A stretch of 64,000 nt of DNA, from contig JAVGWX010000001.1 in NCBI GenBank assembly GCA_036924085.1, forward strand, positions 4,444,200 to 4,508,199. The letters run 5' to 3'. The DNA is from Ariolimax columbianus (lineage: Eukaryota; Mollusca; Gastropoda; Stylommatophora; Arionidae). The notes below the pieces were generated by a model. The model was not told the origin of the DNA and ran no database searches. It worked only from the letters and a program-made list of their open reading frames with translations. Numbering within the stretch: the first letter of the stretch is position 1; each line of letters opens with the position of its first letter. Shown here piece after piece: positions 6,997-54,445 of this stretch. A program made the translations under genes and the position numbers.

Positions 6997-7423
6997 ATAG
7001 TATTGTTCAAGTGTATTAGTGATAGAGTTGATTGTGTATGATTGTTCATGTGTATTAGTAATGAAGTTGATTGTGTATGATTGTTCAAGTGTTTTAGTAA
7101 TGGGGTTGATTGTGTATGATTGTTCAATTGCATTAGTGATGGGGTTGATTGTGTATGATTGTTCAATTGCATTAGTAATGGGGTTGATTGTGTATGATTG
7201 TACATGTGTATGATGGAGTTGAGTGTGCATGATTGTCCATGTGTATGATGGAGTTGATTGTGTATGATTGTACATGTGTATGATGGAGTTGATTGTGTAT
7301 GATTGTCCATGTGTATGATGGGGTTGATTGTGTATGATTGTCCATGTGTATGATGGAGTTGATTGTGTATGATTGTCCATGTGTATGATGGAGTTGATTG
7401 TGTATGTTTGTCCATGTGATTGA
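6997..7423. repeat. Minisatellite, 39- to 35-bp unit, about 11 copies
   Basis: GTTGATTGTGTATGATTGT recurs along the block. The left half has about 39-bp units with an ATTAGT segment. The right half has about 35-bp units with ATGTGTATGATGGA. The minus strand is open through much of it because few stop triplets occur in the unit; this is not taken as a gene. Confidence 0.92.
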
Positions 7424-9474: not shown

Positions 9475-9625
9475 AAATGCAGATGGGTTGTATACCTGAA
9501 AACGGATGGTTACCATAGAGCCCCCCCCCCCCCCAAATTCCCCCCCCCCCCTACAACGTTAAGCCCTACGCAGACTTCCAGCAATGAGGTGGAGAGATGA
9601 CCTGAGTAAATCCTTTGGTCAAACA
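9475..9625 (+). pseudogene. LINE ORF2 C-terminal fragment (right part of the split LINE)
   Basis: The frame gives KCRWVVYLKTDGYHR and then, beyond poly-C tracts, RRLPAMRWRDDLSKSFGQ. The PxMRWRDDL motif and the following TWHQTLQ are the usual C-terminal block of this LINE group. The WHQTLQ codons lead directly into the 55-bp array. A possible end of the ORF (FGKRLGRG) appears after the array at about 15168. Confidence 0.5.
9521..9551. repeat. Two adjacent poly-C tracts
   Basis: C runs of 14 and 11 are separated by AAATTC. Such runs are prone to sequencing and assembly length errors. Confidence 0.95.
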
Positions 9626-12600: not shown

Positions 12601-15175
12601 AAACACTACAGAGCAAAATATCTCACTGAGATTCAACATTTGGCTACCTGGCATCAAACACTACAGAGCAAAATACCTCACTGAGATTCAACATTTGGCT
12701 ACCTGGCATCAAACTCTACAGAGCAAAATACCTCACTGAAATTCAACATTTGGCTACCTGGCATCAAACACTACAGAGCAAAATATATCACTGAGATTTA
12801 ACATTTGGCTACCTGGCATCAAACACTACAGAGCAAAATATCTCACTGAGATTCAACATTTGGCTACCTGGCATCAAACATTACAGAGCAAATTACCTCA
12901 CTGAGATTTAACATTTGGCTACCTGGCATCAAACACTACAGAGCAAAATACCTCACTGAGACTTAACATTTGGCTACCTGGCATCAAACACTACAGAGCG
13001 AAATACCTCACTGAGATTGAACATTTGGCTACCTGGCATCAAACACTACAGAACAAAATACCTCACTGATATTCAACATTTGACTACCTGGCATCAAACA
13101 CTACAGAGCAAAATACCTCACTGAGATTCAACATTTGGCTACCTGGCATCAAACACTACAGAGCAAAATATCTCACTGAGATTCAACATTTGGCTACCTG
13201 GCATCAAACACTACAGAGCAAAATACCTCACTGAGATTCAACATTTGGCTACCTGGCATAAAACACTACAGAACAAAATATCTCACCGAGATTCAACATT
13301 TGGCTACCTGGCATCAAATACTACAGAGCAAAATACCTCACTGAGATTCAACATTTGGCTACCTGGCATCAAACACTACAGAGCAAAATACCTCCCTGAG
13401 ATTCAACATTTGGCTACCTGGCATCAAACACTACAGAGCAAAATACGTCACTGAGATTCAACATTTGGCTACCTGGCATCAAACACTACAGAGCAAAATA
13501 TCTCACTGAGATTCAACATTTGGCTACCTGGCATCAAACACTACAGAGCAAAATACCTCACTGAGATTCAACATTTGGCTACCTGGCATCAAACTCTACA
13601 GAGCAAAATACCTCACTGAAATTCAACATTTGGCTACCTGGCATCAAACACTACAGAGCAAAATATATCACTGAGATTTAACATTTGGCTACCTGGCATC
13701 AAACACTACAGAGCAAAATATCTCACTGAGATTCAACATTTGGCTACCTGGCATCAAACACTACAGAGCAAAATACCTCACTGAGATTCAACATTTGGCT
13801 ACCTGGCATCAAACACTACAGAGCTAAATACCTCACTGAGATTTAACATTTGGCTACCTGGCATCAAACACTACAGAGCAAAATACCTCTCTGAGATTCA
13901 ACATTTGGCTACCTGGCATCAAACACTACTGAGCAAAATACCTCACTGAGACTTAACATTTGGCTACCTGGCATCAAACACTACAGAGCGAAATACCTCA
14001 CTGAGATTCAACATTTGGCTACCTGGCATCAAACACTACAGAGCAAAATACCTCACTGAGATTCAACATTTGGCTACCTGGCATGAAACACTACAGAGAA
14101 AAAATACCTCACTGAGATTCAACATTTGGCTACCTGGCATCAAACACTACAGAGCAAAATACCTCACTGAGATTCAACATTTGACTACCTGGCATCAAAC
14201 ACTACAGAGCAAAATACCTCACTGAGATTCAACATTTGGCTACCTGGCATCAAACACTACAGAGCAAAATACCTCACTGAAATTTAACATTTGGCTACCT
14301 GGCATCAAACACTACAGAGCAAAATACCTCACTGAGATTCAACATTTGGCTACCTGGCATCAAACACTACAGAGCAAAATACCTCACTGAGATTCAACAT
14401 TTGGCTACCTGGCATCAAACACTACAGAGCAAAATATCTCACCGAGATTCAACATTTGGCTACCTGGCATCAAACACTACAGAGCAAAATACCTCACTGA
14501 AATTCAACATTTGGCTACCTGGCATCAAACACTACAGAGCAAAATACCTCCCTGAGATTCAACATTTGGCTACCTGGCATCAAACACTACAGAGCAAAAT
14601 ATCTCACTGAGATTCAACATTTGGCTACCTGGCATCAAACACTACAGAGCAAAATACCTGACTGAGATTCAACATTTGGCTACCTGGCATCGAACACTAC
14701 AGAGCAAAATACCTCACTGAGATTCAACATTTGGCTACCTGGCATCAAACACTACAGAGCAAAATACCTCACTGAGACTCAACATTTGGCTACCTGGCAT
14801 CAAACACTACAGAGCGAAATACCTCACTGAGATTCAACATTTGGCTACCTGGCATCAAACACTACAGAGCAAAATACCTCACTGAGATTCAACATTTGGC
14901 TACCTGGCATCAAACACTACAGGGAAAAATTACCTCACTGAGATTCAACATTTGGCTACCTGGCATCAAACACTACAGAGCAAAATACCTCACTAAGATT
15001 CAACATTTGGCTACCTGGCATCAAACACTACAGAGCAAAATACCTCCCTGAGATTCAACATTTGGCTACCTGGCATCAAACACTACAGAGCAAAATACCT
15101 CACTGAGATTCAACATTTGGCTACCTGGCATCAAACACTACAGAGCAAAATATCTCACTGAGATTCAACATTTGG
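9626..15175. repeat. Minisatellite, 55-bp unit, about 100 copies, with higher-order structure
   Basis: The core GATTCAACATTTGGCTACCT recurs every 55 bp (for example CAACATTTGG at 9661 and 9716). The unit reads TWHQTLQSK in one frame, continuous with the LINE C-terminus upstream, so it probably arose from that coding end. Marker variants show higher-order repeats. The ATGG-type start near 10438 recurs at 11318 (880 bp = 16 units). The pair recurs at 12365 and 13245 (1927 bp, about 35 units), with a further related segment at 14401. Units occur with TACCTC, TATCTC and TACGTC variants in fixed order within each higher-order copy. The 69-residue open frames are products of periodicity. Confidence 0.96.
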
Positions 15176-16042
15176 CAAGCGGCTAGGGAGAGGAGATGGC
15201 TACCTCCCTCATATAGCCGAGCCTTTGAAATGTGAGATCGCTAACACCTCATACCCCTACGGCAGTAATGCTATGGGATACTTTCCTTTTTTTTTTTAAG
15301 ATCATGGTTACTGGGACACAACATGAAAAGACTTGAATAGATACACGTTTCGATGAATAAACCAGCATTCAATTTAAAAAAAATATTTCGGATTGAGGAG
15401 AAAATAAATAAACAACAACAATAATAATAAATGACATTAACAAGGATGCAACACAAAGCCGGGAAAGCTGCCAGCTTGGACATGATGAAGCTTGAAAGAA
15501 CGCCCACACGTTTGTTTAACAGCTTGCATACACGTGCGTTGGAGATGCTGCCTAGATTCACGTGTGCTAATACTTTTTCTCTCCTGACTTCATATTTGTC
15601 GCTTGTTTCTGTAATGCCACACTGCTCTTCCTCCTTTCGATCGGGTTATTTGATTACCGGCACCATCATCTTTGTTTGGTCAGTCCTTGCATGATGTAAC
15701 ACTCTAATCGCCTGGCAACGCACGTGCACAGTATGGCCCAGGGGTCGTGTTATCACACACATCATTTGCCACTGGCTTATTGGACATATTTTCATAACGA
15801 GGTCGTGTCATCTAGATTTGATTTTGTCTTCACTTTGAAAGCATAAAAATACGACTCTATCAACTTATCGTTTGGTAGTATCCATTAAGTGGGTTTTCCA
15901 TTCGGATACTCGAATATGGACCTTTACAAATTTAATGGTCAGTTGATGAGCGTGCTGATCTTGTCAGAACAGACTGAGAACACAGAATCAACTCTAAGAC
16001 TAGTAAACTAATACAGTAGAACAACAATCGCCAACACAGGCA
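15176..16042. other. Array right flank and unassigned sequence
   Basis: The first about 55 bp may encode the residual LINE end (GKRLGRGDGYL). A T10 run (about 15289) and an A-rich segment near 15370-15430 with AACAACAACAATAATAATAA follow. No supported gene is seen in the remainder. Confidence 0.4.
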
Positions 16043-21693: not shown

Positions 21694-21699
21694 GTACCA

Positions 21700-22795
21700 C
21701 CAGAGACTAAACAATTTCGGAAATGCGAAACTAAAGTGGAGAATCTTTGAAGAAATAGCCACAGCAAAGATGCACGACGACCCCCATCAACGCACTAACA
21801 ACACGAAAGCCCATCCCTACTGTACGCAAACCTACCTGGAGGCAGCATATATTTCCAGATGTGGTAGAAAATATACCAGGTATTGGAAACAAAAACTGCC
21901 AGACTGAAAAAGAAAGAAGAGATACTACCCTGAGCTACATAACGAAAAACTACTCAAGCCTGAACTGGACCCATGCATACACCGACGGTTCTGTAACAAA
22001 CACTACACAGAACGGAGGGGCAGGAGCATTCCTGAACCTACCAAATGGCAGAAAAACAACACTGTCATTCGCTACTGGAAAATACACAAGTAATTTCAGA
22101 GAGGAGGCAGAGGCAGTGAGGGCGACAGTGGAAGAAATGGTGAGAGGTAAAAGGAATGAAAGCCACATAGTCCTGCTTACAGATGCCTTGGCCGTAGTCA
22201 CAGCACTAAAAAGCCAGAAAAATACTGAACTTAATGATTTAAGAGCAGTACTCTGTCAACTATGCCAGCAGTCCCCACCAAAAAGGGTAGTGGTACAGTG
22301 GGTTCCATCCCACTGCAACATCCAAGGCAACGAGGAGGCAGACAGACTGACAAAAGAAGGTGCAAGACTACCACAACCAGATACTAGTATGACATACGAA
22401 GAGTCAAAACGGCTTATTAGAGCTAGATACATGACCAAATGGGAAACCGAACATACTGGATACACAAAAAACGATGCCTATTACCAGTTAAACAGAAGAG
22501 AGCAGGTCGTGGTCTTCAGACGTCGCACAGGCCACAATAGACTGAGGTACCACCTATTCAACAAATTGAAGATAGGTGGCACTGACGAATGCCCGTGTGG
22601 TAATGGGAAAATGACCGCTGAGCATTTGCTGCAAAACTGCCAGACATACGAGGATCAGAGAGAGCAGATGTGGCCATCACCAGTAGCAACACTAGACAAG
22701 CTCTATGGCAGTGTCGACAGCCTCAGGATGATCGCTGCTTTTAAAAAAAAAATAAAGGTTGATGTCTGACTGCGTACGATGAAGAAGAAGAAGAA
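21700..22795 (+). mobile_element. RNase H-bearing LINE, copy 1, 5' truncated, (GAA)n tail
   Basis: The block contains the end of ORF2 and a terminal GCGTACGATGAAGAAGAAG tail (about 22773-22795). The direct repeat GTACCA at 21694-21699 and 22796-22801 flanks it, a possible short target-site duplication. The same 3' end occurs in the minus-strand copy at 27.7-30.1 kb and the plus-strand copy at 33.8-39.6 kb. RT followed by RNase H in ORF2 is typical of the I group of non-LTR retrotransposons; the group label is inference. An extra base near 21783 breaks the frame just upstream of the 302-codon open frame. Confidence 0.85.
21861..22769 (+). CDS. ORF2 C-terminus: RNase H domain plus CxC...H...C motif
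   Basis: This 302-codon open frame is a truncated end of a LINE polyprotein; the true start lies far upstream and is missing, so the ATG is only the first in frame. RNase H catalytic positions appear complete: D42 (YTDGS), E84 (REEAEA), D108 (LLTDA), H151 (VPSHC) and D161 (EEADRL). In such LINEs this domain degrades RNA in RNA-DNA hybrids during reverse transcription. A downstream C244-x-C246-x8-H255-x4-C260 motif (CPCG...AEHLLQNC) is probably metal-binding. Without an RT or promoter this copy is not expected to be autonomous. It is the best preserved coding segment in the window and useful as a family reference. Confidence 0.85.
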   Translation: MVENIPGIGNKNCQTEKERRDTTLSYITKNYSSLNWTHAYTDGSVTNTTQNGGAGAFLNLPNGRKTTLSFATGKYTSNFREEAEAVRATVEEMVRGKRNESHIVLLTDALAVVTALKSQKNTELNDLRAVLCQLCQQSPPKRVVVQWVPSHCNIQGNEEADRLTKEGARLPQPDTSMTYEESKRLIRARYMTKWETEHTGYTKNDAYYQLNRREQVVVFRRRTGHNRLRYHLFNKLKIGGTDECPCGNGKMTAEHLLQNCQTYEDQREQMWPSPVATLDKLYGSVDSLRMIAAFKKKIKVDV

Positions 22796-22801
22796 GTACC
22801 A

Positions 22802-27730: not shown

Positions 27731-27806
27731 ATTCTTCTTCTTCTTCTTCTTCTTCTTCTTCTTCTTCTTCTTCTTCTTCTTCTTCTTCTTCTTCTTCTTC
27801 TTCTTC
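27731..27806. repeat. (TTC)n microsatellite, the 3' tail of a minus-strand LINE
   Basis: About 25 TTC triplets directly abut the LINE 3' terminus (TTCGTACGCTGTCAAACG on the plus strand). On the LINE strand this is GCGTACGA(AGA)n. It is by far the longest of the three tails of this family in the window. Confidence 0.95.
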
Positions 27807-27814
27807 GTACGCTG

Positions 27815-28736
27815 TCAAACGTCAACCTGTATTTGTTCGAAGAAAGCAGCGGTCATTCTGAGGCTGTCGATACTGCCATAGAGCTTTTCTATTGTTGCCA
27901 CTTGTGATGGCCACATGTGCATTCTCTGGTCCTCGTACATCGGGCGGTTTTGCAGCAGATGTTCAGCGGTCATTTCCCCAATATCACAAGTACATTCGTC
28001 AGTGCTACCTATCTTCAGCTTATTGAATATGTGGTACCTCAGTTTGTTGTGGTCTGTGCGGAGTCTGAAGACCACGACCTGCTCTCTTCTGTTCAACTGG
28101 TAATAGGCATCATTTTTTGTGTAGCCAGTATGTTCTGTTTCCCATTTGGCCATGTATCTGGCCCTGATAAGCCTTTTGGACTCTTCGTTGGTCACACTAG
28201 AATCTGGTTGTGGTAGTCTTGCACCTTCTTTTGCCAATCTGTCTGCCTCCTCGTTGCCTTTAATGTTACAGTGGGATGGAACCCACTGTACCACTAATCT
28301 TTTTGGTGCGGACTGCTGGCATAGTTGACAGAGTACTGCTCATAAATCATTAAGTTTTTCTGGCTTTTTAGTGCTGTGACTACGGCCAGTACATCTGTAA
28401 ACAGGACTATCTGGCTTTCATTTCTTTCGCCTGTTAGCATTGCTTCTACTGCAGCCCTCAGTGCCTCTGCCTCCGCTCTGAAATTGCCCCTCCATTCTGT
28501 GTTGTGTTTGTTACAGAACCGTCGGTTTATGCATGGGTCCAGTCCATGCTTGGGTAGTTTTCCTTTATGTACCTCAGGGTTATGTCTCTTCTTTCTTCTT
28601 CAGTCTGGCTGTTCTTGTTTCCAATACCTGGTATATTTTCTATCACGTCCGGAATGATATGCTGCTTCCAGGTAGGTTTGCGTACAGTAGTGATGGGTTT
28701 TAGTATTGTTACGGTGTTCATAGGGTCTTCGCTCAA
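27815..28736 (-). pseudogene. RNase H region of LINE copy 2, broken
   Basis: The minus strand gives MSEDPMNTVTILKPITTVRK through VIENIPGIGNKNSQTEEERR and MDWTHA, then breaks around the YTDGS position. It resumes from VQWVPSHCNIKGNEEADRLA through ECTCDIGEMTAEHLLQNRPM. The CxC..H..C motif is altered: the last Cys is Arg (LLQNR). The central part with E and D catalytic positions lies in other frames between 28294 and 28527. Confidence 0.82.
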
Positions 28737-28795
28737 CTTTGCTTTGGCTATTTCTACAAAGTTTCTCCGCTTTAGCTTCCCATTTCCAAATCTAT

Positions 28796-30105
28796 TTAGT
28801 CTCTGTGCATTGGATGGTCTGTCAGTTTCTCTTCTTGCTGCTGACCTCTGCAGTCTCTTCTGTCGGTCATGGATTGCAGATTTGTAATCTTTTCAAGTTC
28901 TACAATTGGCGTTGACTTCATGCCTTCTTTTATAACTCTCATGGCTTGGTTTTGGAGTTTGCTAATTTTATCGAAGTTCGCCTTTGCTACTGTTGTCCAT
29001 GCCGCAATGCTATACTCGAGAACTGGTCTCACTCTTCCAGTGTACAGTTTCTTGAGTATTCTTTCGTCTGCTCCCCAGCTTGTGCCAGCAAGTTTCCTCA
29101 TGATTGCCATTCTTTGTCTGGCTCTCATTCGGTTTCTCTCGATCTGACTTTTCCATGTCATGCGCCGATCAAATGTGACTCCCGAGTAGTTTAGGTTGTC
29201 GTTTGGCCACAGGTATTTGCCGTTAAGACTTATTTTGGTGTTCTGTGGTTTATTTGAAAGCGAGAATATCGTACATGTTTTTTCCTCCTTTATTTTGACC
29301 AGCCATGAGTTCGCCCACTCCTCCAACGAATATAGGGCCTGCTTGCTTGCTAGGGTGAGATTTTTTTTTCAGAGGTCCACAGACAGATCGTCTGCAAACA
29401 TGGAGCTGTGGACTCTTCTTGATATATTCTCTGTGATGTTGTTTATATACACCAGGAAAACTCTGGGTGACAGTACCCCCTCCTTCCCTCCCGAGGTACT
29501 CCTTGCTCCAGTGTCACCATTTTGCTCATCTGCCCTTGTACTTGAACTCTGGCTGTTCTGTTTTCGAGGTAGTGGCTGATCAATCTGTACTTTTTCCCAC
29601 ATACTTCACTTCTTCGTAGCTTAAGTCCCTCTTTCCACACCTTGTCAAATGCGTTCTCTAGATCTACCCAAACCGATACTGCATGCTTTTTTTCTTGGTA
29701 AGCATCCAACTATTTCCTGTGCTATGAGAGTGATCTGGTCCTCAGTGGATCTGTGTTGTCTAAATCCTGATTGCTGTGGAATTAGTATTTGTTTTTCTTC
29801 CAGGTGCCACATCAGTCTGGTGTTTATTATACGCTCCATCAGTTTGCCTACACAGCTCAGTAGACTGATGTCCTGTATCCATTTGGATCTGTTCTATCTT
29901 TTTCTTTCTTTGGTACTGGTATAAGTACAGCATCTGTCCATGCCTGCGGTACAATTCCCCTTTTCCAGCTTTGGTTCAGGACTGATAGTAACTTCCTCTT
30001 TGCTGTTTTGCCCAACCCCATCAGCATTTCGTGTGTTACCCCATCTTTTCCGGGCGATTTCTTTTTCTTTAAAGTTCTCATGACCTCATCCATTTCATTC
30101 ATTGA
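28796..30105 (-). pseudogene. Reverse transcriptase domain of LINE copy 2, frameshifted
   Basis: In order on the minus strand: KKKKSPGKDGVTHEML and AVLIPVPKKEKDRTDPNGYR (fingers), QQSGFRQHRSTEDQITLIAQ, and WVDLENAFDKVWKEGL (motif A). Then come EQGVPREGGVLSP (motif B), SMFADDLSVDL (catalytic FADD retained) and a long open segment from MEEWANSWLVKIKEEKT to RDCRGQQQEEK. Several frameshifts separate the pieces (near 29850, 29640 and 29520, and near 29350 where FADDLSVDL runs into a T-rich tract). The enzyme would copy LINE RNA at a nicked target; this copy cannot encode it intact. Confidence 0.88.
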
Positions 30106-33839: not shown

Positions 33840-33851
33840 GAAACATTGAAT
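33840..33851. repeat. Left target-site duplication of LINE copy 3
   Basis: GAAACATTGAAT here recurs at 39588-39599 directly after the (GAA)n tail. The first three bases overlap the tail pattern, so at least ACATTGAAT is unambiguous. Confidence 0.85.
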
Positions 33852-34651
33852 AGAAACGAAAAGACAAAACCGATCCAAATGGATACAGGCCCATCAGCCT
33901 ACTGAGCTGTGTCGGCAAACTGTTGGAACGTATGATAAACACCAGACTGATGTGGCATCTGGAAGAAAAACAGATACCAATTTCACAGCAAGCAGGCTTT
34001 AGACAGCACAGATCCACTGAGGACCAGGTCATCCTCATAGCCCAGGAAATAGAGATGCCTACCAGGAACAGAAACATACAGTAGCGGTTGGGGTGGATCT
34101 GGAAAAGGCATTTGACAAAGTCTGGAAAGATGGACTAAGAGTCCAGCTAAGAAGAAGTGACGTTTGTGGGAAAATGTACAAGTGGGTCAACCACTGCCTC
34201 AAAAAAAGAACGGCCAGAGTCGAAGTACAAGGGCAGATGAGCAAAAAGGTGACACTTGAGCAGGGAGTACCCCAAGGGGGAGTACTGTCACCCACACTCT
34301 TCCTGGTGTATATAAATGACATTACATAGAATATACCAAGAAGAGTTCATAGCTCAATGTTTGCAGACGATCTGGCTATGTGGACCTCTGAAAAGAATCT
34401 CACCATAGCAAGAAATCAGATGCAGCAGGCCCTAACATCGCTGGAAGAGTGGGCGAACTCATGGCTGGTCAAAATAAACGAGGACAAAACCACATGTACA
34501 ATATTCTCGCTATCAATCAAACCCCAAAACACCAAATTAAGTCTAAACGGTAAATACCTTCAGCCAAACGACAACCCAAACTATCTTGGAGTCACATTTG
34601 ATCGGCGCATGACATGGAAAAGTCAGATCGAGAGAAACCGAATGAGAGCCA
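33852..34651 (+). pseudogene. LINE copy 3, RT domain up to the insertion
   Basis: After a decayed start (NPNGYRPISLLSCVGKLLER-like across frames) the frame from 34093 gives MDLEKAFDKVWKDGL (motif A), EQGVPQGGVLSPTLFLVYIN (motif B), a TAG at 34327 and SMFADDLAMW at 34357 (FADD retained). It continues to RMTWKSQIERNRMRA at the insertion point. A deletion or frameshift near 34080 separates the first part. Confidence 0.88.
34641..34651. repeat. Left target-site duplication of the rRNA-derived element
   Basis: AATGAGAGCCA encodes part of RMRA in the LINE RT. An identical 11-mer is at 38185-38195, immediately after the insertion's (GAA)n tail. Confidence 0.92.
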
Positions 34652-35279
34652 ATCTGGGGTAGTTGTCTCGCCGCAGCGACTCAATTTCAACCAGTGTTCG
34701 TAAAGCGATCTCAGTCCCGCCAGGCGGTGCGATAGCGCGGGCTTGCGGAAAACGCTCGCCTGCCTTTCCCCGTAGAGCGAATTGGGTGCGGTTTGTTGTA
34801 GTGGCTCCTCCACCGAGGTGCGCTAGTCTGGTCCGTATCAGGAAACGTGGTGATTTATCTAAGGCTTATAGCAGAGCTCGACAGAACGTTTCGCTGGTGG
34901 TCCGACTCTCGCAAAGAGCTTGTGACCGGCAAATGGAAAGCAGGAATCGTTGCCTCGAGGCCCTGCGTTCTCCTACGGAGAAGGGCAGACTGGCAGGCCA
35001 AATTGTCTCTAGTCCCAGTGAAAATTCATCGCCGAGGTCGTTGGGATCCGTTCTGCACAGAGCGCTGCCATCCCTCCTCGAGCGAGCCCGGTCGGTCGGT
35101 CGTCTGGTGCGTGTGGGAGGCCCCTGTCAGGCGGTCCTAGGTCGACGGAGTGAGGAACGGGTGGAACAACCGTCCGTCCGTCCCGTCAGTCGGTCCCTGC
35201 GGCCGTCGTCCCAGTGAAGCTTTTTACACACCCTTCCTCCGCCGACCGGTGTGTGCTGTACGTACGTCTCCGATAGATA
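34652..35279 (+). other. 5' external transcribed spacer-like leader upstream of 18S
   Basis: About 630 bp of GC-rich sequence, unlike the AT-rich surroundings, lies directly upstream of the 18S start and in the same orientation. If the insertion is a copied RNA, its first base (34652) would approximate the RNA polymerase I start site of the parent rDNA. The ETS label is inferred from position and composition; no ETS is conserved enough to recognise by sequence. Confidence 0.65.
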
Positions 35280-36448
35280 TCTGGTTGATCCTGCCAGTAG
35301 TCATATGCTTGTCTCAAAGATTAAGCCATGCATGTCTAAGTTCACACTGTCTCACGGTGAAACCGTGAATGGCTCATTAAATCAGTCGAGGTTCCTTAGA
35401 TGACACGATCCTACTTGGATAACTATGGCAATTCTAGAGCTAATACATGCTTACCAAGCTCCGACCCTCGCGGAAAGAGCGCTTTTATTAGTTCAAAACC
35501 AATCGTCGTTTCCCCTCGCGTGGTTGCGGCGTCCCCACTGGTGACTCTGGACAACTTTGTGCTGATCGCATGGCCTCATGTGCCGGCGACGCATCTTTCA
35601 AATGTCTGCCCTATCAAATGTCGATGGTACGTGACATGCCTACCATGTTTGTAACGGGTAACGGGGAATCAGGGTTCGATTCCGGAGAGGGAGCATGAGA
35701 AACGGCTACCACATCCAAGGAAGGCAGCAGGCGCGCAACTTACCCACTCCCGGCACGGGGAGGTAGTGACGAAAAATAACAATACGGGACTCTTTCGAGG
35801 CCCCGTAATTGGAATGAGTACACTTTAAACCCTTTAACGAGGATCTATTGGAGGGCAAGTCTGGTGCCAGCAGCCGCGGTAATTCCAGCTCCAATAGCGT
35901 ATATTAAAGTTGTTGCAGTTAAAAAGCTCGTAGTTGGATCTCAGGCGCAGGCGGGCGGTCCGGCTCGCGCCGGTTCACTGCCCGTTGTCTCCTGCCCTAC
36001 CGTCTGCCGGCTCTCTCCCACGGGTGCTCTTCGCTGAGCGTCCTGGGTGGCCGGCGCGTTTACTTTGAAAAAATTAGAGTGTTCAAAGCAGGCCTCGGCT
36101 GCCTGAATAATGGTGCATGGAATAATGGAATAGGACCTCGGTTCTATTTTGTTGGTTTTCGGAACTGGAGGTAATGATTAACAGGGACAAACGGGGGCAT
36201 TCGTATTGCGGCGTTAGAGGTGAAATTCTTGGATCGCCGCAAGACGAGCTACTGCGAAAGCATTTGTAAAGAATGTTTTCATTAATCAAGAACGAAAGTC
36301 AGAGGCGCGAAGACGATCAGATACCGTCGTAGTTCTGACCATAAACGATGCCGACTAGCGATCCGCAGGAGTTGCTTCGATGACTCTGCGGGCAGCTTCC
36401 GGGAAACCAAAGTGTTTGGGTCCCGGGGGAAGTATGGTTGCAAAGCTA

Positions 36449-36493
<45 letters not shown>

Positions 36494-36517
36494 GCGGCTT
36501 AATTTGACTCAACACGG
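35280..36517 (+). rRNA. 18S rRNA, 5' two-thirds, retrotransposed partial copy
   Basis: It begins with CTGGTTGATCCTGCCAGTAG, the universal eukaryotic 18S 5' end. It contains GTGCCAGCAGCCGCGGTAAT (the 530 loop) near 35861, GAGGTGAAATTCTTGGATCG near 36217 and GGAATTGACGGAAGGGCACC near 36458. It follows the 18S order through TTGACTCAACACGG and then departs from 18S abruptly near 36517. The remaining third of a usual 1.8-kb 18S is missing. A few differences from the expected conserved sequence (for example GAAACCGTGAATGG and TAACTATGG) suggest mild decay. This is a pseudogene copy inside a LINE, not a functional rDNA unit: there is no ITS or 5.8S. Confidence 0.95.
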
Positions 36518-36844
36518 CCAACACTGAAATGACTGACATGCCGAGACCACTTTTCTGGGGTCTAATATTAAACTGGTGCTGGATTTAGACCCTCAGAAAT
36601 CTGGGGTTATGCCCTCTGTGGCTCGGTTGGTCTGCATCCAGTGTTTGATAAAGGAATTGACGGAAGAGCACTATCAGGAGTGGAGCCTGAGGCTAAAATT
36701 GACTAAACACGCCAATAGTGTAGAATGACTGTCAAAAGAGAGCACCTTCGTGGGGTCTAATAGTGAACATGTGCTGGTATTAGACCCACGGAAAACAGGT
36801 CAGTCTTCAAACCCCCAAATGAAAGAGCGCCTGCTACGGTAATC
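36455..36844 (+). repeat. 195-bp duplicated module fusing 18S and 28S segments
   Basis: AAAGGAATTGACGGAAG starts at 36455 and again at 36650. Each copy holds the 18S 3'-central segment (through ...GACT(C/A)AACACG) followed by GGGGTCTAATA.T.AAC.TGTGCTGG-like sequence from near the 28S 3' end (GGTTTAGACC region). The second copy is more diverged (GGAAGAGCACTATCAGGAG). The duplication therefore took place after 18S and 28S pieces had been joined, so the junction is part of the element's history rather than a single insertion accident. Confidence 0.85.
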
Positions 36845-37390
36845 TGGTCTTCACCCTGCAGAAATCGCAGGCTTCAGAAACTGGGCCATTGACAAACTAA
36901 AAGCCCTCTATTGATACGGTCTGGCTAATATTAAACGGGTGCTGGAAATAAACCCTCTGAAGACAGGTCAGCTTTACCCTACAAATGACAATGCTCTGCT
37001 ACGGTAATCCTGCTAAGCCCGAGAGGAGCCGCAGACATTTTGGTTCACGTACTAGGCGGATAAGCGAACGGTTCGAGGTGAGGGATTACGGCTGAACGCC
37101 TCTAAGCCAAAAATCCCGCCTAAAAGCAGCCCAGCACGAATGCAAAGGGAGGCTTCGACATGGTGGGGACCTCGGGGTCACGCTCCAGCCCCGCCCGGTC
37201 AAGCCGCAGAATGAGGTCTCTGCCGTCGGCTGATAAAAGCGGGCGGGAAGCTGCTCGATATTCACCCCATACGGCGATGAGGAATGAAATCATTTGTAGA
37301 AGACTTAGTTCTCGGTCGGGTGCCCTAAGCAGTAGATCAGCTACCTCACTGCGAACTGCTGAGACTCAACCCTTGACCATGTCCGCTCCC
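36517..37390 (+). rRNA. 28S rRNA 3'-end-derived modules, diverged and rearranged
   Basis: Segments in 28S order are visible. (G)TCTAATA...GCTGG.TTTAGACCC recurs three times (about 36562, 36757 and 36930). ACAGGTCAGCTTTACCCTAC and CTACGGTAATCCTGCTAAG lie near 36975-37015. GAGAGGAGCCGCAGACATTT follows near 37021, then GGGATTACGGCTGAACGCCT near 37082 and AATCCCGCCTAAAAG. The terminal ATCATTTGTAGAAGACTTAG (near 37289) and CAGCTACCTCACTGCGAAC continue to about 37385. Known 28S ends with these blocks in this order. Divergence is well above that of the 18S part, so this portion is older or evolving under different constraint. Confidence 0.8.
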
Positions 37391-37565
37391 TAGGCGGACA
37401 ACATCTCCGTGCAAGACTAGGCTTGTCACCTGGTCAAATGCACTATTTCGAGAGGAATCACAGGTCGCTAACATTTGGTCCACGTGCTTGGCTGATAAGC
37501 TACCATCTGAGGGATTACGGCCGAACGCCTCTAAGCCAGAATCCCGCCCAAAATCTCAGCACCGC
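37391..37565 (+). rRNA. Additional 28S 3'-end module
   Basis: TTCGAGAGGAATCACAGGTC, ACATTTGGTCCACGTGCTTG, GCTGATAAGCTACCATCTGA and GGGATTACGGCCGAACGCCT occur in 28S order. They duplicate the segment already seen near 37021-37110. This copy retains GCTTGGCTGATAAGC better than the previous one. Confidence 0.8.
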
Positions 37566-38184
37566 TGAGATGGGAGGCTACGACATGGCTGGGGCTTGTG
37601 ACCCGGCCCGATCGAGCCGCAGGAATGCACCTGGTAAAATGCACTCCTTCCTCGCTCTTTGCATCTGTCTGCTATCAGTCATTCCAATGGACGCAGAAGA
37701 GATGCAGTCCAGCGGACACTGCACCTCCTGTCCTATGGTGGCAAGCTCCCGGGTGGCGGGGAATGCTAGGCGTACCATCACTGCAGATGAGCCGAGAAAA
37801 TAGAGCGAGCAAAAAGATACCTCACTCATATGCATATGCTACGTTTCTGGCAGGACGTGACGATCCTGGGAAAAAGTCACACTGGACTGCCTCTCTTCCG
37901 GGATAGTACAAACTAGTACATAGTCCATCATATCATTTCCAAACGCTATAGACACGAGTAGGGAAGACTCGATAGTCCTGCAAGACAACTTCCCAAGAGA
38001 GACAACTCTGACCAAAAACAACTGCTGCCTTGCAGTTAGGCTGGGGACAGCCAAAGGCTAAGGAGGGCAACCCTACAGAAACGCCTGTTGAAATCGGATG
38101 CACTGAGCCACTGGCTAACAAATTAAATCAGTGCAACGTAAATATCGCTGTAAACAGCGTACGAAGAAGAAGAAGAAGAAGAAG
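37566..38184 (+). other. Non-ribosomal 3' region of the element with LINE-like tail
   Basis: About 620 bp of moderate GC content with no recognised RNA or protein. It could include 3' ETS/IGS sequence or an older SINE or LINE body. The last 20-30 bp (TGTAAACAGCGTACGAAGAAG) match the 3' terminus of LINE copy 2 (TTTGACAGCGTACGAAGAAG). That is what a LINE RT would need to recognise the RNA. Confidence 0.6.
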
Positions 38185-38195
38185 AATGAGAGCCA
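38185..38195. repeat. Right target-site duplication of the rRNA-derived element
   Basis: AATGAGAGCCA, identical to 34641-34651, directly after the (GAA)n tail. The LINE coding sequence resumes in register from here. Confidence 0.92.
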
Positions 38196-39543
38196 GAGAA
38201 AGAATGGCAATCATGAGAAAACTTGCTGGCACAAGCTGGGGAACAGACGAAAGCATACTAAAGAAACTGTACACTGGAAGAGTGAGATCAGTTCTCGAGT
38301 ATGGCATTGCGGCATGGACAACAGCCGCAAAGGCGAACTTCGATAAAGTTAGCAAACTCCAAAACAAAGCCATGAGAGTTATAACAGGAGGCATGAATTC
38401 AACGCCAATTGCAGAACTTGAAAACATTACAAAACTGCAATCCATGGCCGACAGAAGAGACTGCAGAGCCTAGCTGCAAGAAGAGAAACTCAGAAGACTG
38501 ACTGACCACCCAATGCACCAGAGACTAAACAATTTCGGAAATGGGAAGCTAAAGCGAAGAAACTTTGCAGAAATAGCCAAAGCAAAAATGCACGAAGACC
38601 CTATGAACGCACTAACCACACCAAAGCCCATCCCTACTGTACGAAAACCTACCTGGAGGCACCATATATTTCCAGAGGTGGTAGAAAATATACCAGGTAT
38701 TAGAAACAAAAACTGCCAGTCTGAAAAAGAAAGAAGAGATACTACCCTGAGTTTAATTACGGAAAGCTACCAAAGCATGGACTGGACCCATGCATACACC
38801 GGCGGTTCCGTAACAAATACAACACAGAACGGAGGGGCAGGAGCATTCCTGAGCCTACCAAATCGCTACTAGAAAACACACAACCAATTTCAGAGCGGAG
38901 GCAGAGGCACTGAGGGCGGCAGTGGAAGAAATGGTGACAGGTAAAAGGAAAGCCACATAGTCCTGCTTACAGATGCACTGGCCGTAGTCACAGCACTGAA
39001 AAGCCAGAAAAATACTGAACTTAATGAATTAAGAGCAGTACTCTGTCAACTATGCCAGCAGACCGCACCAAAAAGAGTAGTGGTGCAGTGGGTTCCATCT
39101 CACTGCAACATCCAAGGCAACGAGGAGGCAGACAGACTGGCAAAAGAAGGTGCAAAACTACCACAACCTGAAACTAGAATGACATACGAAGAGTCAAAAC
39201 GGCTTATTAGAGCTAGATACATGGCCAAATGGGAAACCGAACATACTGGCTACACCAAAAACGATGCCTATTACCAGTTGAACGGAAAAGAGCAGGTCGT
39301 GGTCGTCAGACTTCGCACTGGTCACAATAGACTCATGTACCACCTATTCAACAAATTGAAGATAGGTGGCACCGACGAATGCCCGTGTGGTACCGGCAAA
39401 ATGACCGCTGAGCATTTGCTGCAAAACTGCCCGACATACGAGGATCAGAGAGAGCAGATGTGGCCATCACCAGGGGCAACACTAGACAAGCTCTATGGCA
39501 GTGTCGACAGCCTCAGGATGACGGCTTGTTTTTTAGAAAAAAA
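38185..39543 (+). pseudogene. LINE copy 3, thumb and RNase H after the insertion
   Basis: The coding sequence resumes with MRARERMAIMRKLAGTSWG and continues to DRRDCRA with a TAG near 38471. It then runs from MHQRLNNFGNGKLKRRNFAE through VVENIPGIRNKNCQSEKERR to TGGSVTNTTQNGG. The first RNase H catalytic Asp (YTDGS in copy 1) is Gly here (YTGGS). About 23 bp missing after LSLPN shifts the frame. The second half resumes at MVQWVPSHCNIQGNEEADRL with CPCGTGKMTAEHLLQNC intact. The domain is inactive by both mutation and frameshift. Confidence 0.9.
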
Positions 39544-39587
39544 TAATGGTTACTGTCTGACTGCGTACGATGAAGAAGAAAGAAGAA

Positions 39588-39599
39588 GAAACATTGAAT
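39588..39599. repeat. Right target-site duplication of LINE copy 3
   Basis: GAAACATTGAAT follows the GAA-rich tail and matches 33840-33851. Confidence 0.85.
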
Positions 39600-47388: not shown

Positions 47389-48734
47389 AATATAATAACA
47401 AAAAATGTTCAATGCAGAAGCGAAATCAGGAAGCTAATAAGGATCGCCATCTCTGTTTGGAAAAAAAGTCAGATGACCGCGCCTTAGTGTCTGCGCTCTC
47501 GACTCTCCGGTATTTGTGAAAAGTTTTCCAATGTTTGGTGGTTCCTGTTCGGATTATATCTCACAACTCCTTCACCAGCTCAAGGACGTCCTTCTGTGGA
47601 ATTGATGTTCTTTCGATCGGCTATCCTGTTTATTATGCTGCATTTCACAGCATTTCAAGCCTGCTTCAAGCCGTGAGAGACCAGTCCATGATGGAGTTCA
47701 ACTTTCAGCTTAACTGCACACCAGAATTCAGTCCAGGCTATCACCACTCAAGGCCATTTCTGTTCGGACTGTAGCCGACTTCCTCCTGCCCGCCCCTCCC
47801 TCCACCGGAGGTTACACAATACCTCTCTCAAAATCGTATTCTCAGCAAAGCAAGGGTCATACTGACGAAAAGGTGGACACAATCAGAAGCCACGGCCGCG
47901 GGACACGCAAAAACAGGAAGCTGGACACGGACAGACACGGAAAGCTTGTCACAAAAATTTGTCTAACACACTCCTCGCGGACCTCATCACAAGGCTGATG
48001 AGTGCATGGCTCCACCCGGGAAGTCTGTAGGGATTTCGGTCGACACGCTTCTCGTGAAAAGAGTCTCAGCAGTTGGACATGGTATTGGTCGATCGACGTA
48101 ACGGGCTTATGGCGCCTTCGCCAACATTATTATTATTAGCATCTATGTTTTCCCCCAAATGAGTCACACATTGACATCCAAACAAGTCACTCACAAATTA
48201 AAATTGAGAGTATCAGATGTACACTGGTCTCTTCTGTATGGCGCCGACACGTAGACAACGGATACATGATTGGAGAAGAGAGTTCCAAATATGAATATAT
48301 GGAAGGGCGGGGTGCATCGCCTAGAAGGAAAATAAAAGAAATTGGGAGCGGCGTTCAAACCAAACCGGGATTTTTTTGTCTAGTTCTACCTGCACCGGTT
48401 ATAACACGCTGGAACTACTATCATTAGTTAGGAGGACTTGTGTCATATTACTACTAGAGGGTCCACTTGCCATGGGCCTGTTAAGTGACAGATAAATACA
48501 AATGGCGACAACATTGTAAGTTCTGGCATGGAACAGCGTGTTGTGATGAAGTAGCTTGTGATACAAGGCGGACATTTACAGAAGACTGCAATCACAACAC
48601 AGTGATGAGACACTCAGTCGCAGTACGACATTTGAAGAGTGTAATAGTTTTAGAGAAGGCCGTACATTTGTGAGTGATAACCCGGCCGTGGTGGCTCTCA
48701 ACCCACTACAGTCATTTATGTAAATATCCAGATT
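47389..48734. other. Unassigned sequence with a possible retroelement 3' end
   Basis: GGCTTATGGCGCCTTCGCCA followed by ACATTATTATTATTAG at about 48108-48140 resembles a retroelement 3' end with an (ATT)n tail, but no upstream ORF motif confirms it. The rest shows no supported gene. Confidence 0.3.
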
Positions 48735-51700
48735 GTTGGTGGGGGAGTGAGGGAGGGCTGATATTTTTGTGGGGCTGATTTTGATGGGGGGGGGGGGTGG
48801 CTGATGATGGTAGGGGGCGATGTTGGTGGGGGGGGGCTGATGTTGGTGTGGGAGGCTGATGTTGGTGGGGGAGGCAGGGAGGGCTGATGTTGGTGGGGGG
48901 CGATGTTGGTTGGGGGGGGGGGCGATGTTGGTCGGGGTAGGAGGGTAGATGTTGTTGGGGGGGGGGCTTATGTTGGTGGGGGGGGGGTTGATGTTGGTGT
49001 GGAGGGCTAATGCTGGTGGGGGAGTGAAGGAGGGCTGATATTTTTGTGGGGCTGATGTTTGTAGGGGGGGGGGGGTGGCTCATGATGGTTAGGGGGGGGC
49101 GATGTTGGTGGGGTTGGCGGCTGATGTTGGTGGGGGGGCGGCTGATGTGGGGGGGGACGATTTTTGTGGGAGGGCCTGCTGATATTGGTTGGGGGGGGGG
49201 CTGATGTTGGTAGGGGGCTGATGTTGGTTGGCGGGCTGATGTTGGTTGTGGTGAGGCTGATGTTGGTTTGGGGGGACTGATGTTGGTGGGGGGGGGCTTA
49301 TGTTAGTTAGGGGGGATGATGTTGGTTGGGGGGGGGGGGCTGATAATGGTGGAGCTGATGTATGTGGGGAACTGATGTTGGTGGGAAGGGCTGATGTTTA
49401 TGTGGGAGCGCTCATGTTGACGTGACGGGGGGGGGGGGGGGGCTGATGTTGGTGAGGGGGCTGATGCAGGTAGGGGACTGATGTTGGGGAGGGGGGTTGA
49501 TGTTGGTTGGGGGCTGATGTTGGTGGGGGGCTGATGTTAGTGTAGGGGGGCTGATGTTGGTGGGGTGCTGATGTTGTTGGGGGGGGGGGGTGGCTGATGT
49601 TGATTTTGGGGGCTGATATTGGTTTGTGGCTAATGTTGGTTGGGAGGCTGATGTTCTTTTGGGGGAGGCTGATGATGGTGGGGGATGATGTTGGTTATGG
49701 GGGCTTATCCTGGTGGGGGGGCTGATGTTGGTTTGGTGGCTGATGTTGTTTGGTGACTGATGTTGATTTGAGGGGCTGATGTTGGTGGAGGGCTGAGGTT
49801 GGTGGGGCGCTTATGTTTGTTGGAGGAGGGCTGATGTCGGTTAGGGGGGGGGGCTGATGTTGGTTGGGGGCTGATGTTGGTTGGGGTGGCGGATGTTGGT
49901 GGGGGGGGGGCTGATGTTGTTGGGGAGGGATGATGTTGGTGAGAGAGCGGCTGATGTGGGGGAGCGATGTTGGTGGGAGGGCCGGCTGATGTTGGTGTGG
50001 AGCTGATGTTGGTTGGAGGCTGATGTTGATTTGCGGTCTAATGTTGGTTGGGGGGCTGATGTTTTGGCTGATGTTGGTGGGGGGTTCATGTTGGTTATGG
50101 GGGCTGATGTTGCTGTGGGGAGGAGGGGGGTTGATGTTGTGGGGGGGCTGATGTTTTTTTTTGTTGGGCGGGGCTGATGTTGGTGGGGTGAGGCTTGACT
50201 TTGGTGGGGGGCTGATGCTGCAGGGGGGGGGGGAGCTGATGTTGATGTGGGGTGGGGGCTGATGTTGATTTCGGGGGGGGGGGCTGATGTTGGTGGGGGG
50301 GGGCTGATGTTGGTGGGGGGGGCTGATGTTGGTTGGGGTGGCTGATGTTGGTGGCATGGGGGGGCTGATGTTGTGGGGGAGGGATGATGTTGGTTAGAGG
50401 GCGGCTGATGTGGAGGAGCGATGTTGGTGGGAGGGCCGGCTTATGTTAGTTGGAGGCTGATGTTGATTTGCGGGCTAATGTTGGTTGGGGGGCTGATGTT
50501 GGTTGTTTGGATGTATGTTTGGCTGATGTTGGTGGGGGGTTCATGTTGGTTATGGGGGCTGATGTTGCTGTGGGGAGGAGGGGGGTTGATGTTGTGGGGG
50601 GGCTGATGTTTTTTTTTTCGGGGAGGGGGGGCTGATGTTGGTGGGGTGAGGCTTGACTTTGGTGGGGGGCTGATGCTGCAGGGGGGGGGGGAGAGCTGAT
50701 GTTGATGTGGGGTGGGGGCTGATGTTGATGTCGGGGGGGCTGATGTTGGTGGGGGGGGGGGCTGATGTTGGTGGAGGGCTGATGTTGGTTGGCGGGCTGA
50801 TGTTATTTGGGGGGGGTGGACTGATGTTGGTGGGGGATGGGGGGCTGATGTTGTGGGGGGGGGCTGGTGTTGGTTTGGGGGCTGATGTTGGTGGCGGGGC
50901 TGATGTTGTGGGGGAGGGATGATGTTGGTGAGAGGGCTGATGTTGATGTGGGTGGACTCATGTTGACGTGGTGGCATGCTGATGTTGGTGCGGGGGCTGA
51001 TGCTGGTGGGGGGCTCATGTTGGTTGGGGGCTATTGTTGTTGTGGGGAGGGACTTATGTTGGTGATGGAGGATGGGAGGGCTGATGTTGGTGGAGGGGGC
51101 AATGTTGGTGGGGGTGAGAGGCTGATGTTGGTTGGGGGGGCGCCACGTTTGTTGGGGTTGGAGGGCTGATGTTGGTGTGGGGGGTCTGATGTTGATTGGG
51201 GAGCGAGGGAGGGCTGATGTTGTTTGACGGCTGATGTTGGTTGGTCGGGGGCTGGCTGATGATGGGGGGGGGGGGGCGTCGTTGGTGGGAGTGCGGCTGA
51301 TGTTGGTGAGGGAGGGGGGGGCGGCTGATGTGGAGGGGGTGGCTGATGTTGGTGGCGGCAGATGTTTGTGGGGTGGGTGCTGTTGGTTGGAGGGGCTGAT
51401 GTTGGTTGGGGCGAGGCTGATGTTGGTGGGAGGGGAAGGCTGATTTTGGTTGGGGGTCCTGATGTTGGTTGGGTGGGTGCTGATGTTGGTTGGGGGGGGG
51501 GATGATGTTGGTGGGGAGGGGGCTGATGTTGGTTGGGGCCTGAAGTTAGTTGGGGGGGGGGGCTGATGTTTGTCGTGGTGCTGATGATGGTGAGTAGTTG
51601 ATGTTGGTCTGGGGGCTGATGTTGGTCAGGGGGCTGATGTTGGTGGGGGGGGGGGGCTGATGTTTATGTGACGGGGGGGGGCTGATGTTGATGTGGTTGG

Positions 51701-54445
51701 GGGGCTGATGCTGATGGTGGGAAGGCTGATGTTGGTATGAAGCAGATCTTGGGGGGGGGGGGCTGATGTTGTTGAGGGGGCTGATGTTTGTGGGGGAATG
51801 ATGTTGGTGGAGCGGCTGATGTGGGGGGGGGGGTGATATTGACTTGGATGGGGGACTGATGTTGGTGAGGGGGGCTGATGTTTGTAGGGGGCTGATGTTG
51901 GTGGAGGGCTGATGTTGGTGGGGTCTGATGTTGATGGGTGGGGGGGGGGGCTGATGTTAGTGGGGAGCTGATGTTGGTGTGGGGTGCTGATGTTTGTTGG
52001 GGAAGCAGGGAGCGCTAATGTTGGGCGATGTTGCTGTCTGATGTTGGTGGGGGGGGGGGGCGGGGGGCGATGTTGGTAGGGGTAGGAGGGTAGATGTTGA
52101 TGGGGGGGGGGGGCTGATGTTGGGGAGGGGCTGATGTTGGTGGGAGAGGGCGGGAGGGCTGATGTTGTTGTGGGGCTGATGTTTGGCTGATGATGGTGGA
52201 GCCGGTTGATGTGGAGGGAGGGGCGATGTTGGTGGGAGGGCCTGCTGATATTTATAGGGGGATGATGTTGATTGTGGTGGGGCTGATGTTGATGTGGGCA
52301 CATTTAGGTGAGGTCATGTTGACGTGATGGGGGAGGAGGGGGGGCTGATATTTCTGAGGAGGCTGAACCTGGTAGGGGGCTGATGTTGGGTAGGGGGGAG
52401 CTGATGTTGGTGGGGGGCGGGCTGATGTTGGGGGCGGCTGATATTGGTTGGGGGCACATTTTGGTGAGGGGAGGGGCTGATGTTTTTTTGCGGTGCTGAT
52501 GTTGGTGGGGGAGGCTTGACGTTGGTGGGGGGCTGATGTTGTCGGGGGGAGCTGATGTTGTTGTGGTGTGGCTGCTGATGTTGATGTCGGGGGGGGGGGA
52601 CTGATCTTTGTGGGGGGGGGGGGCTGATGTTGGTGGGATGGCTGATGTTGATGTGAGTGAACTGATGTCGACGTGGTGGGGGGCTGATGTTCGTGAGGGG
52701 GGCTGGTGTTGGTGAGGGGCTGATTTCGGTGGGGGGCTGATGTTGGTAGGGGGCTGATGTTGGTGTGGGGAGGGGCTGATGTTGGTGTGGGGAGGGGCTT
52801 ATGTTGGTGGGGGAGGGAGGGCTGATGTTGTTGGACGGCTGATGTTGGTGAGGGGGGGCTGATGTTGGTGATGGGGCTGATGTTGGTGGGGGGCTGATAT
52901 TGGTGGAGAGGTTGATGTTGGTGGGGGGATGATGTTGGTGTGGGGCTGCTGTCGCTGATATTGTTGGGGGGCTGATTTTGATGGGGGTTGATGTTGATGG
53001 GGGGAGGCTGATGTTGGTGGGGAGTTATGTTATCGGGGGTTGTGGGGGGGGGGGGGCTGATGTTGGTGGTGTAATGTTGTTTGGGGGGGGGGGGGGCTGA
53101 TGTTGGTCGTGGGTGATGTTATCGGGGAGGGGGGCTGATGTTGGTGTTGTGTAATCTTGTTTGGGGGGGGGGGCTGATGTTGGTGGTGGGTGATGTCGTT
53201 GGGGGAGGGGGGATGGCTAATGTAGGTGGAGGGAGGAGGCTGATGTCGGTGGTGGGAGGAGGCTTATGTTGGTCCCGGGAGGAGGCTGATGTCGGTGTCG
53301 GGAGGAGGCTGATGTAGGTGGAGCTACTGATGTTAGTGTGAGGGGGCTGATGTTGGTGAGGGAGGGAGGGAGGGCTGATGTTGATGGAGGGCTGATGTTG
53401 GTTGGGTGGGCGTTGGTTGATGATGGTGGGGGGCGATGTTCGTAGGAGGCCGGCTGATGTTGGTAGGGGGGGAGGGCGGCTGATGTGGGGTGGAGGCTGA
53501 TGTTGGTGGGGCAGATGTTGATGGAGGGCTGCTGTTGGTTGGTGGGCGGGGGGGCTGATGTTGGTGTGGGGGGAGGCTGATGTTGGTGGGAGGGGCAGGC
53601 TGATGTCGGTTAGGGGGGGGGCCTGATGTTGGTGGGGAGGCTGATGTTGGTTAGGGGGGGAGGCTGATGTTTGTGGGGGGGGGCTGATTTTTTAGGGGGG
53701 GAGCTGATGTTGGTGGAGGGGGGCTGAAGTTGGTGCGGGGCTTATGTTGATGTGGGGGGGGGGGCTGATGTTGATGAGGGGGGGGGGGCTGATGCTGGTT
53801 GGGGGCTGATGTTGATGAGGGTTGCTGATGTCTGTGGGGAGCGGGGGGCTGATGTTTTTGGGGAGGCTGTTGTTGGTGGGGAAGAGCTGATGTTGGTGGG
53901 TAGCTGATGTTTGTGGGAGGCTGATGTTAGTGGGAAGCTGATGTTGGTGAACGGGGGGGGGGGGGGCTGATGTATGTGTGGGGGGGGGGGGGGCTAATGT
54001 TTGTGAGGGGGGCTGATGTTGGTGAGGGGGCTGGTGTTGGTGGGGGGGGGCTGATTTTGGTGGGGGGGGGGTTGATGTTGATGGGGGTGATTTTGATGGG
54101 GGGTTGATGTTTATAGGGGGACTTATGTTGGTGGTGAGTTATGTTAATCGGGGGGGGGGGGAGGGCTGATGTTGGTGGTGGTGTATAATGTTGTTTGGGG
54201 GGGGGGGCTGATGGTGGTGGTGAGTGATGTTGTTGGGGGCTGATGTCTTAGGGGGGGGGGGATGGCTGATGTAGGTGGCTGGATGAGGCTGATGTTGGTG
54301 GCGGGAGGAGGCTGATGTTTGTCGCGGTAGGAGGCTGATGTCGGTGGCGGGAGGAAGCTTATGTTGGTCGCTGGAGGAGGCTGATGTCGGTGGCGGAAGG
54401 AGGCTGATGTTGGTCGTGGGAATGAGGCTGATGTTTGTGGCTTCT
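48735..54445. repeat. 5.7-kb G-rich minisatellite field, about 17-25-bp unit
   Basis: The motif GGCTGATGTTGGTGGGGG recurs hundreds of times with variable G-runs (3 to more than 14). The plus strand has very few C residues (mainly the GCTGATG C), so strand asymmetry is extreme. A secondary duplication of about 455 bp is visible: TGATGTTGCTGTGGGGAGGA near 50105 recurs near 50560 with the same neighbours. Toward the right end a subfamily with GGAGGAGGCTGATGTCGGTG appears. The proline/histidine-rich minus frames (HQHQPPPTNIS) and glycine-rich plus frames are consequences of composition. G-run lengths are likely to be imprecise in any assembly. Confidence 0.95.

Follow-up and report, generated by a model that had tools for sequence, protein, structure and literature searches.

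We have analysed a 64,000-nucleotide stretch of the Ariolimax columbianus genome (contig JAVGWX010000001.1, positions 4,444,200 to 4,508,199 of the forward strand; hereafter the window), which carries a 3.5-kb retroposed element composed largely of ribosomal RNA (rRNA) sequence and ending in the tail of a long interspersed nuclear element (LINE). This rRNA element belongs to a young dispersed family. Its rRNA block is almost certainly the leader, or 5' untranslated region (UTR), of an autonomous LINE, with the window element being a deletion derivative. Taken as a whole, the data make it probable that the window element is a non-autonomous, internally deleted representative of a group of LINEs led by an rRNA-precursor front. 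With somewhat less assurance, the sequences point to LINE masters that may reside in ribosomal DNA (rDNA) units and be driven by RNA polymerase I (Pol I).

The block and its edges lie where a first-pass annotation of this DNA had placed them, and the exact duplication described there indeed flanks the block within a LINE copy (Table 1). The unambiguous 11 nt of this target duplication, AATGAGAGCCA, are found on the plus strand of the window only at 34641-34651 and 38185-38195; the duplication reaches 12 nt if the shared preceding G is counted, a position at which it is ambiguous with the GAA tail. A second LINE copy (at 27.8 kb, minus strand) represents the empty site, its part 27786-29909 running uninterrupted there with a single copy of the 12-mer. 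The 3' end had been read as ACAGCGTACGA(AGA)n, and the same tail occurs at LINE 3' ends: the tail ACAGCGTACG has two occurrences in the window, one at the end of the rRNA element and the other in the LINE copy at 27.8 kb, and GAA runs (15 nt, at most one mismatch; 28 overlapping matches) are confined within the window to the end of the rRNA element and the 3' ends of two LINE copies out of three.

The earlier annotation had proposed a multi-rRNA, non-autonomous element, or a pre-rRNA chimera, that has a LINE tail and was mobilised by the RNase H-bearing LINE, to be checked by a genome search. The search found dispersed copies with the same junction, the same LINE tail and differing target duplications, in support of a non-autonomous multi-rRNA element tailed by an RNase H-bearing LINE. 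Probing the assembly (G000; 2.29 Gb, 401 contigs) with the junction (36400-36640) gave 1443 first-look candidates, of which 40 were scored, so that the copy count is a lower bound; all 40 match at 98-100% over 239-241 nt. Since the sample was chosen by high identity to the probe, it is biased towards young copies. Among the 39 other copies fetched, three (L031, L047 and L048; type B) differ in their 3' half. Dropping these and the segmental duplicates L015 and L017 leaves 35 type-A copies, perhaps 34 of them independent, as L013, probably the third such duplicate (of L014), was kept.

Type-A copies begin exactly at element nt 1 in 23/35 cases and at nt 5 or less in 25/35. Target duplications of at least 8 nt flank 25/35 of them, as compared to 7/1190 mismatched-flank pairs, and duplications of at least 10 nt flank 24/35, as compared to 1/1190 (for L022, this scoring gave 5 nt and another scoring 13 nt). 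The duplications of the family are mostly 10-14 nt long and accompany a shared (GAA)n-type tail, which in type-A copies is mostly GCGTACGAAG; L045, L046 and L051 have GCGTACGATG, as do the window LINE copies at 22.8 and 39.6 kb. That 39 other places carry the same junction excludes an assembly error for the family, and with distinct duplications at these places a one-off chimera or assembly artefact has a negligible chance of being the explanation; a single chimeric insertion by template switching was likewise ruled out by the junction search. With a probe inside the 18S, 40 of 87 candidates were scored and yielded 39 more dispersed places; by eye, only the window is shared with the junction-probe set. 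Three copies (L034, L037 and L046) are 5'-truncated at the identical nucleotide (element nt 1033, GGAGAGGGAGCA) with left flanks ending in GAG, which may reflect a recurrent stop or microhomology. The left flank of L033 resembles 18S (TCTTTCAAATGTCTGCCC), perhaps pointing to insertion into another element copy or rDNA.

The type-B copies connect the rRNA block to a LINE. They have the head in common with the window element (97.5% identity over 2.16 kb in L047), followed by type-B modules and a body related to those of the window (75-81% identical) and then by a coding frame. L047 and its overlapping neighbour L052 together form a complete 7.4-kb LINE with a 13-nt duplication, GTATGATGGATTC, at both ends; it consists of a 3497-nt leader, a frame at 3498-7355 and then CTGTGTACGCA(GAA)n. 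It is because this LINE is contiguous in the genome and has its duplication on either side that we assign the rRNA block to the LINE as its leader. The first 917 codons of the L047 frame encode endonuclease and reverse transcriptase (RT) domains (PF14529, PF03372, PF00078), and RNase H (PF00075) is found in the window LINE copy, the DNA of which aligns to L047; as in LINEs with RNase H, an apurinic/apyrimidinic (AP) endonuclease, an RT and an RNase H thus lie in frame after the leader. The closest named protein relatives belong to two snails, Littorina saxatilis (41% identity) and Bradybaena similaris (44%). The LINE may be I-superfamily-like. Protein searches using non-coding frames as proxies for other copies returned no match.

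L031 begins at the identical 5' end and continues into the frame, and L054, 1.7 kb downstream, contains the LINE end, the tail and the matching duplication GACCCCTAATC; for this LINE, the sequence examined comprises the two ends. Target duplications, simple-repeat 3' tails and 5' truncations are all as in target-primed insertion. The window element keeps the LINE 5' and 3' ends and has no coding region, as in short internally deleted elements (SIDEs). Its tail is that of the LINE at 27.8 kb and not that of L047, and it therefore derives from a sister LINE lineage, of which no complete form was found; no parent LINE with an exactly matching type-A leader was seen among the copies examined. The possibility that no LINE is involved and that an old multi-copy element newly captured its head is ruled out, as the type-B copies run into the LINE frame.

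The head of the element was compared with presumed working rDNA, which forms arrays on contigs C222, C50, C190 and C67 with a spacing of ~12.2 kb (by coordinates, among the matches listed). Homology to the rDNA unit L055 (C222) starts exactly at element nt 1; the rDNA directly upstream reads GTATATT, and the sequence preceding this point looks to us like a Pol I promoter. Judging from this alignment, the 5' end of the element is very probably the 5' end of the rRNA precursor (pre-rRNA), with ATCTGGGG as its presumed start.

The head, made up of 5' external transcribed spacer (ETS) and 18S, is equal or nearly equal to rDNA, and the 3' part is old. The majority 18S of 24 copies (chosen from the 40, and including the duplicate pair L014/L015 as well as L016, which starts at nt 19) shows 0/294 substitutions relative to genomic rDNA 18S over the last 294 nt to 36517. 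Across 23 sequences (21 type-A copies and two LINEs), ETS substitutions relative to rDNA are fewest, at 1/458, in L014, its duplicate L015, L024 and the LINE L047, and most numerous, at 16/459, in L051; the window copy has 13/448. This distance to today's rDNA rises with the private changes found downstream (Spearman 0.75, p = 2e-5, n = 24, shared ancestry uncorrected), with the ETS of younger copies being nearer to today's rDNA. Private changes (45 in the ETS, 80 in the 18S and 140 in the rest, corresponding to 3.00, 2.69 and 3.55 per kb per copy) are spread almost evenly over the element, suggesting that inserted copies decay close to neutrally. Variants shared by at least four copies number 14 in the ETS (three adjacent, perhaps one event), 0 in the 18S, 8 in 36518-37650 and 0 in the body; the source 18S therefore appears to be held constant like working rRNA, and the source ETS to drift like spacer. 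ETS and 3' haplotypes recombine, with all four gametes present in 67/112 pairs between them, as compared to 29/91 and 9/28 within the blocks. Further 18S 3' halves lie off the listed arrays on chromosome-sized contigs (G000:C13:37295426, 37415343, 38059949, 38179377, C6:74592079 and others), possibly as rDNA fragments or lineages with more 18S.

The lack of shared 18S variants among the 24 copies would also be expected of a leader captured once and inherited clonally, its 18S being under selection for use as RNA (for example, in ribosome docking). We regard this as improbable, since such a leader does not predict an ETS that tracks today's rDNA (1/458 in the closest copies) or the correlation with private changes, and the 18S of module 2 has drifted (7/63). 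The simplest model is one of masters in rDNA, because it accounts for the start at the rRNA 5' end, the undrifting 18S, the host-tracking ETS, the recombination between head and 3' part, and a fused unit in an rDNA array (see below). LINE masters would be located in rDNA units, joined to 18S at nt ~1240, and Pol I would transcribe them from the rRNA start. Concerted evolution would hold their ETS-18S head equal to working rDNA as far as the heterology at 36517; the LINE protein would spread both full-length and coding-deleted transcripts over the genome, where the inserted copies would then decay neutrally. We therefore lean towards a LINE family that breeds in rDNA under the Pol I promoter, with its leader kept by concerted evolution, and that inserts genome-wide without site specificity, rDNA being its source and not its target. 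If this is true, each insertion is a dated snapshot of the host ETS.

The main rival is template switching, since it explains every one of these observations except the fused unit. LINE copies with their own promoter would be reverse transcribed into complementary DNA that jumps from the 18S-like module to ordinary pre-rRNA, thereby renewing the head and ending at the pre-rRNA 5' end. This would yield a head of current or recent rDNA on an old 3' part, a switch point within homologous 18S, one head common to lineages with 75-81% alike 3' halves, and heads recombining with 3' parts; switching between RNAs has been proposed for HaSE3 (PMC3272025) and for LINE-1/28S chimeras (PMC13174262). We nevertheless consider it unlikely, as independent jumps might scatter, yet 40/40 scored matches share the joint at 98-100% (the probe itself favours that joint), and as it does not predict a fused unit behind an rDNA promoter region.

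Such a unit was found on C67. Of 130 candidates for a promoter-region probe (L055:1-110; 89 nt upstream plus 21 nt), 40 were scored and 40/40 matched at 100%, all on C67 and C50 among the matches listed, with unusual spacings of 17.0, 16.3, 18.6 and 11.2 kb. Nine short stretches were taken at the expected 18S joint: seven consist of N, one (L059) has normal 18S, and the ninth, L061, which lies in the C67 interval of 18.6 kb, is fused like the element. The promoter-region probe matches at 100% upstream of the L061 fusion, at an offset of 1937 nt, which is also the offset in the normal L059 of the same array (1963 in C222, by coordinates). The location of one copy in an rDNA array, downstream of the presumed start, suggests ribosomal genes as a launch pad for the family. 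One promoter region on C67 (137113-137222) is inverted in an otherwise minus-strand array; this and the spacings of 11.2-18.6 kb may represent rearrangement, insertions or misassembly.

Several points weigh against masters in rDNA. No intact LINE master was seen among the copies examined, with the L047 frame containing one stop (at 6249-6251) and the L031 frame being broken. The fused unit was seen once, in a short stretch at the joint, and its module differs from the window at 10/111 positions and from the three LINE copies at 9-10/111, so that it belongs to a related lineage and is not the direct source of these copies. In addition, contigs of rDNA are easily misassembled, and C67 is the one with the inverted promoter region. 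We infer Pol I use from position alone. Shared ancestry may contribute to the ETS correlation, private-change rates differ somewhat by region (with 18S the lowest), and a duplication of at least 8 nt was not seen in 10/35 type-A copies.

Within the rRNA block of the window element, the ETS is 93.8% identical to rDNA L055 including gaps (464 columns, from exactly 34652, covering the spacer up to its last ~150 nt). The ~1.24 kb of 18S reported in the first reading proved to be 18S nt 1-1240, with an Rfam small-subunit (SSU) match at 35281-36425 (926 bits) and SSU sequence running on to 36454 and further. From 36107 on, this 18S has 7/302 mismatches at sites conserved across three unrelated 18S genes; where two reference 18S genes agree, the element is off at 39/343 sites and a third reference, the metazoan-type 18S L002, at 37/341. 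The Rfam large-subunit (LSU) match (36990-37382) reaches model position 3399/3401. No Pol III-type head (tRNA, 5S, 7SL) is present, gathering-threshold matches in the window being SSU and LSU rRNA only, with no tRNA.

The modules are old and more decayed than the 18S. Mismatches at Rfam capital positions amount to 12/466 in the 18S (rows compared), 6/54 in the 18S of module 2, and 9/54 and 9/53 in the 28S of modules 3 and 4; relative to two unrelated 28S genes, conserved-site mismatches are 14/55, 15/60, 25/88 and 3/23 in modules 1 to 4. One contig with a 28S fragment, retrieved in scans of viral collections, was taken as a reference. A change-point scan of the last 18S part places a step near 36529 (13/312 vs 7/28; equalled in 8/1000 permutations), and direct comparison with rDNA sets the boundary at 36517, beyond which 16 nt are missing and then 5/21 differ. 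The 18S-28S junction originally called at 36517 is thus correct as the point at which near-perfect 18S stops, but decayed 18S continues to ~36561 and 28S begins at ~36562. Similarly, the "28S 3'-end modules" do contain 28S 3' sequence, but are made up of three 18S::28S units and one more 28S 3' copy. An 18S signal after 36517 is equalled in 3/2000 shuffles for module 1 and 4/2000 for module 3; module 2 gave no signal of 18S after the joint (473/2000). Simple insertion of an old element somewhere at random in the 18S is disfavoured, as modules 1-3 seem to descend from a single 18S::28S joint, the module 2 trace after the joint not exceeding shuffles. A hairpin at the 3' end of the element was not significant (z -1.26).

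Table 1. Features of the rRNA element and LINE copies in the window
Feature	Position	Strand	Basis or remark
rRNA retroelement, retroposed copy, 3.5 kb	34652-38183	+	parts: 5' ETS, 18S, decayed 18S/28S modules, body, LINE tail
5' ETS, begins at presumed pre-rRNA 5' end	34652..35277	+	rDNA L055 comparison
18S nt 1 to about 1240	35278..36517	+	Rfam SSU match, rDNA comparison
Module 1, decayed part: old 18S (16 nt gone after 36517), 28S from ~36562	36518..36648	+	
Module 2: old 18S (7/63 off) and 28S	36649..36843	+	
Module 3: trace of old 18S, then 28S up to 3' end (model 3399/3401)	36868..37382	+	
Module 4: second copy of 28S 3' part	37427..37650	+	
Body; 81% identity with end of 5' UTR of full-length LINE L047	37651..38153	+	
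LINE 3' tail ACAGCGTACGA(AGA)n of rRNA element	38154..38183	+	common to LINE 3' ends
rRNA element, left target duplication GAATGAGAGCCA	34640..34651	+	exact repeat at edges
rRNA element, right target duplication	38184..38195	+	exact repeat at edges
Host LINE copy, 5'-truncated (RT ... RNase H ... tail), split by rRNA element	33852..39587	+	
Host LINE copy, left target duplication GAAACATTGAAT	33840..33851	+	exact 12-mer, both edges
Host LINE copy, right target duplication	39588..39599	+	exact 12-mer, both edges
Second LINE copy, tail as in rRNA element (ACAGCGTACGAAG), covers empty site	27732..29909	-	
Third LINE copy, 5'-truncated	21698..22796	+	

Elsewhere in the window, 9624-15176 and 48730-54440 hold large tandem repeats: an array of 55-nt units that are 95-97% identical, and a long one with strong G/C skew. 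The viral contig L001 (IMGVR_UViG_3300009564_000091) opens with ~125 nt of eukaryotic 28S (L001:1-125) that adjoin other sequence, which probably reflects a chimeric assembly, and L002, L003 and L004 are eukaryotic rDNA in contigs filed under Coleofasciculus, Planomonospora and Dehalococcoidia, probably through contamination.

An rRNA-leader LINE makes it testable whether Pol I transcripts from the rRNA promoter feed genome-wide retrotransposition. The ETS of its insertions could serve as a dating tool and as a natural record of past rDNA spacer sequences. Where genomes contain scattered near-perfect 18S copies of this kind, rDNA and barcoding analyses can go astray. We found no description of a LINE with an ETS-18S leader in the literature searched, which covered exactly that question incompletely.

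Several known systems come close to this family. The R1 and R2 elements of Drosophila and the R2/R1 hybrid SIDEs are rDNA non-long-terminal-repeat (non-LTR) elements; R2 and its SIDEs are co-transcribed with rRNA, and the SIDEs, like the window element, are internally deleted derivatives with both ends, one hybrid SIDE appearing to be partly derived from internal transcribed spacer 1 (PMC3414825). R1 and R2 differ in having fixed 28S sites and, for R2-type elements, a self-cutting 5' ribozyme (PMC3414825), whereas the present family has an ETS and 18S leader, a presumed rRNA start, and dispersed copies at varied sites with differing duplications. The 28S-derived short interspersed nuclear elements (SINEs), namely the mammalian rRNA SINE (Longo 2015), MeloSINE (PMC4844689) and SINE28 (PMC8010984), similarly contain 28S 3' sequence and are LINE-mobilised and non-autonomous, but no ETS/18S head is described in what was available of these accounts (PMC4844689, PMC8010984), and here the element is 3.5 kb long with the rRNA as a LINE leader. 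LINE-1/28S chimeras also join rRNA to LINE sequence, mostly in sense orientation; these are single events (18 cases, with 50-482 nt of 28S) (PMC13174262), as opposed to a propagating family with a 3.5-kb leader. Finally, HaSE3, a 5S rRNA/tRNA-SINE chimera, resembles the present family in that a head was replaced on a shared 3' region, with template switching proposed, but it is a SINE with a Pol III 5S head and not an rRNA-leader LINE (PMC3272025).

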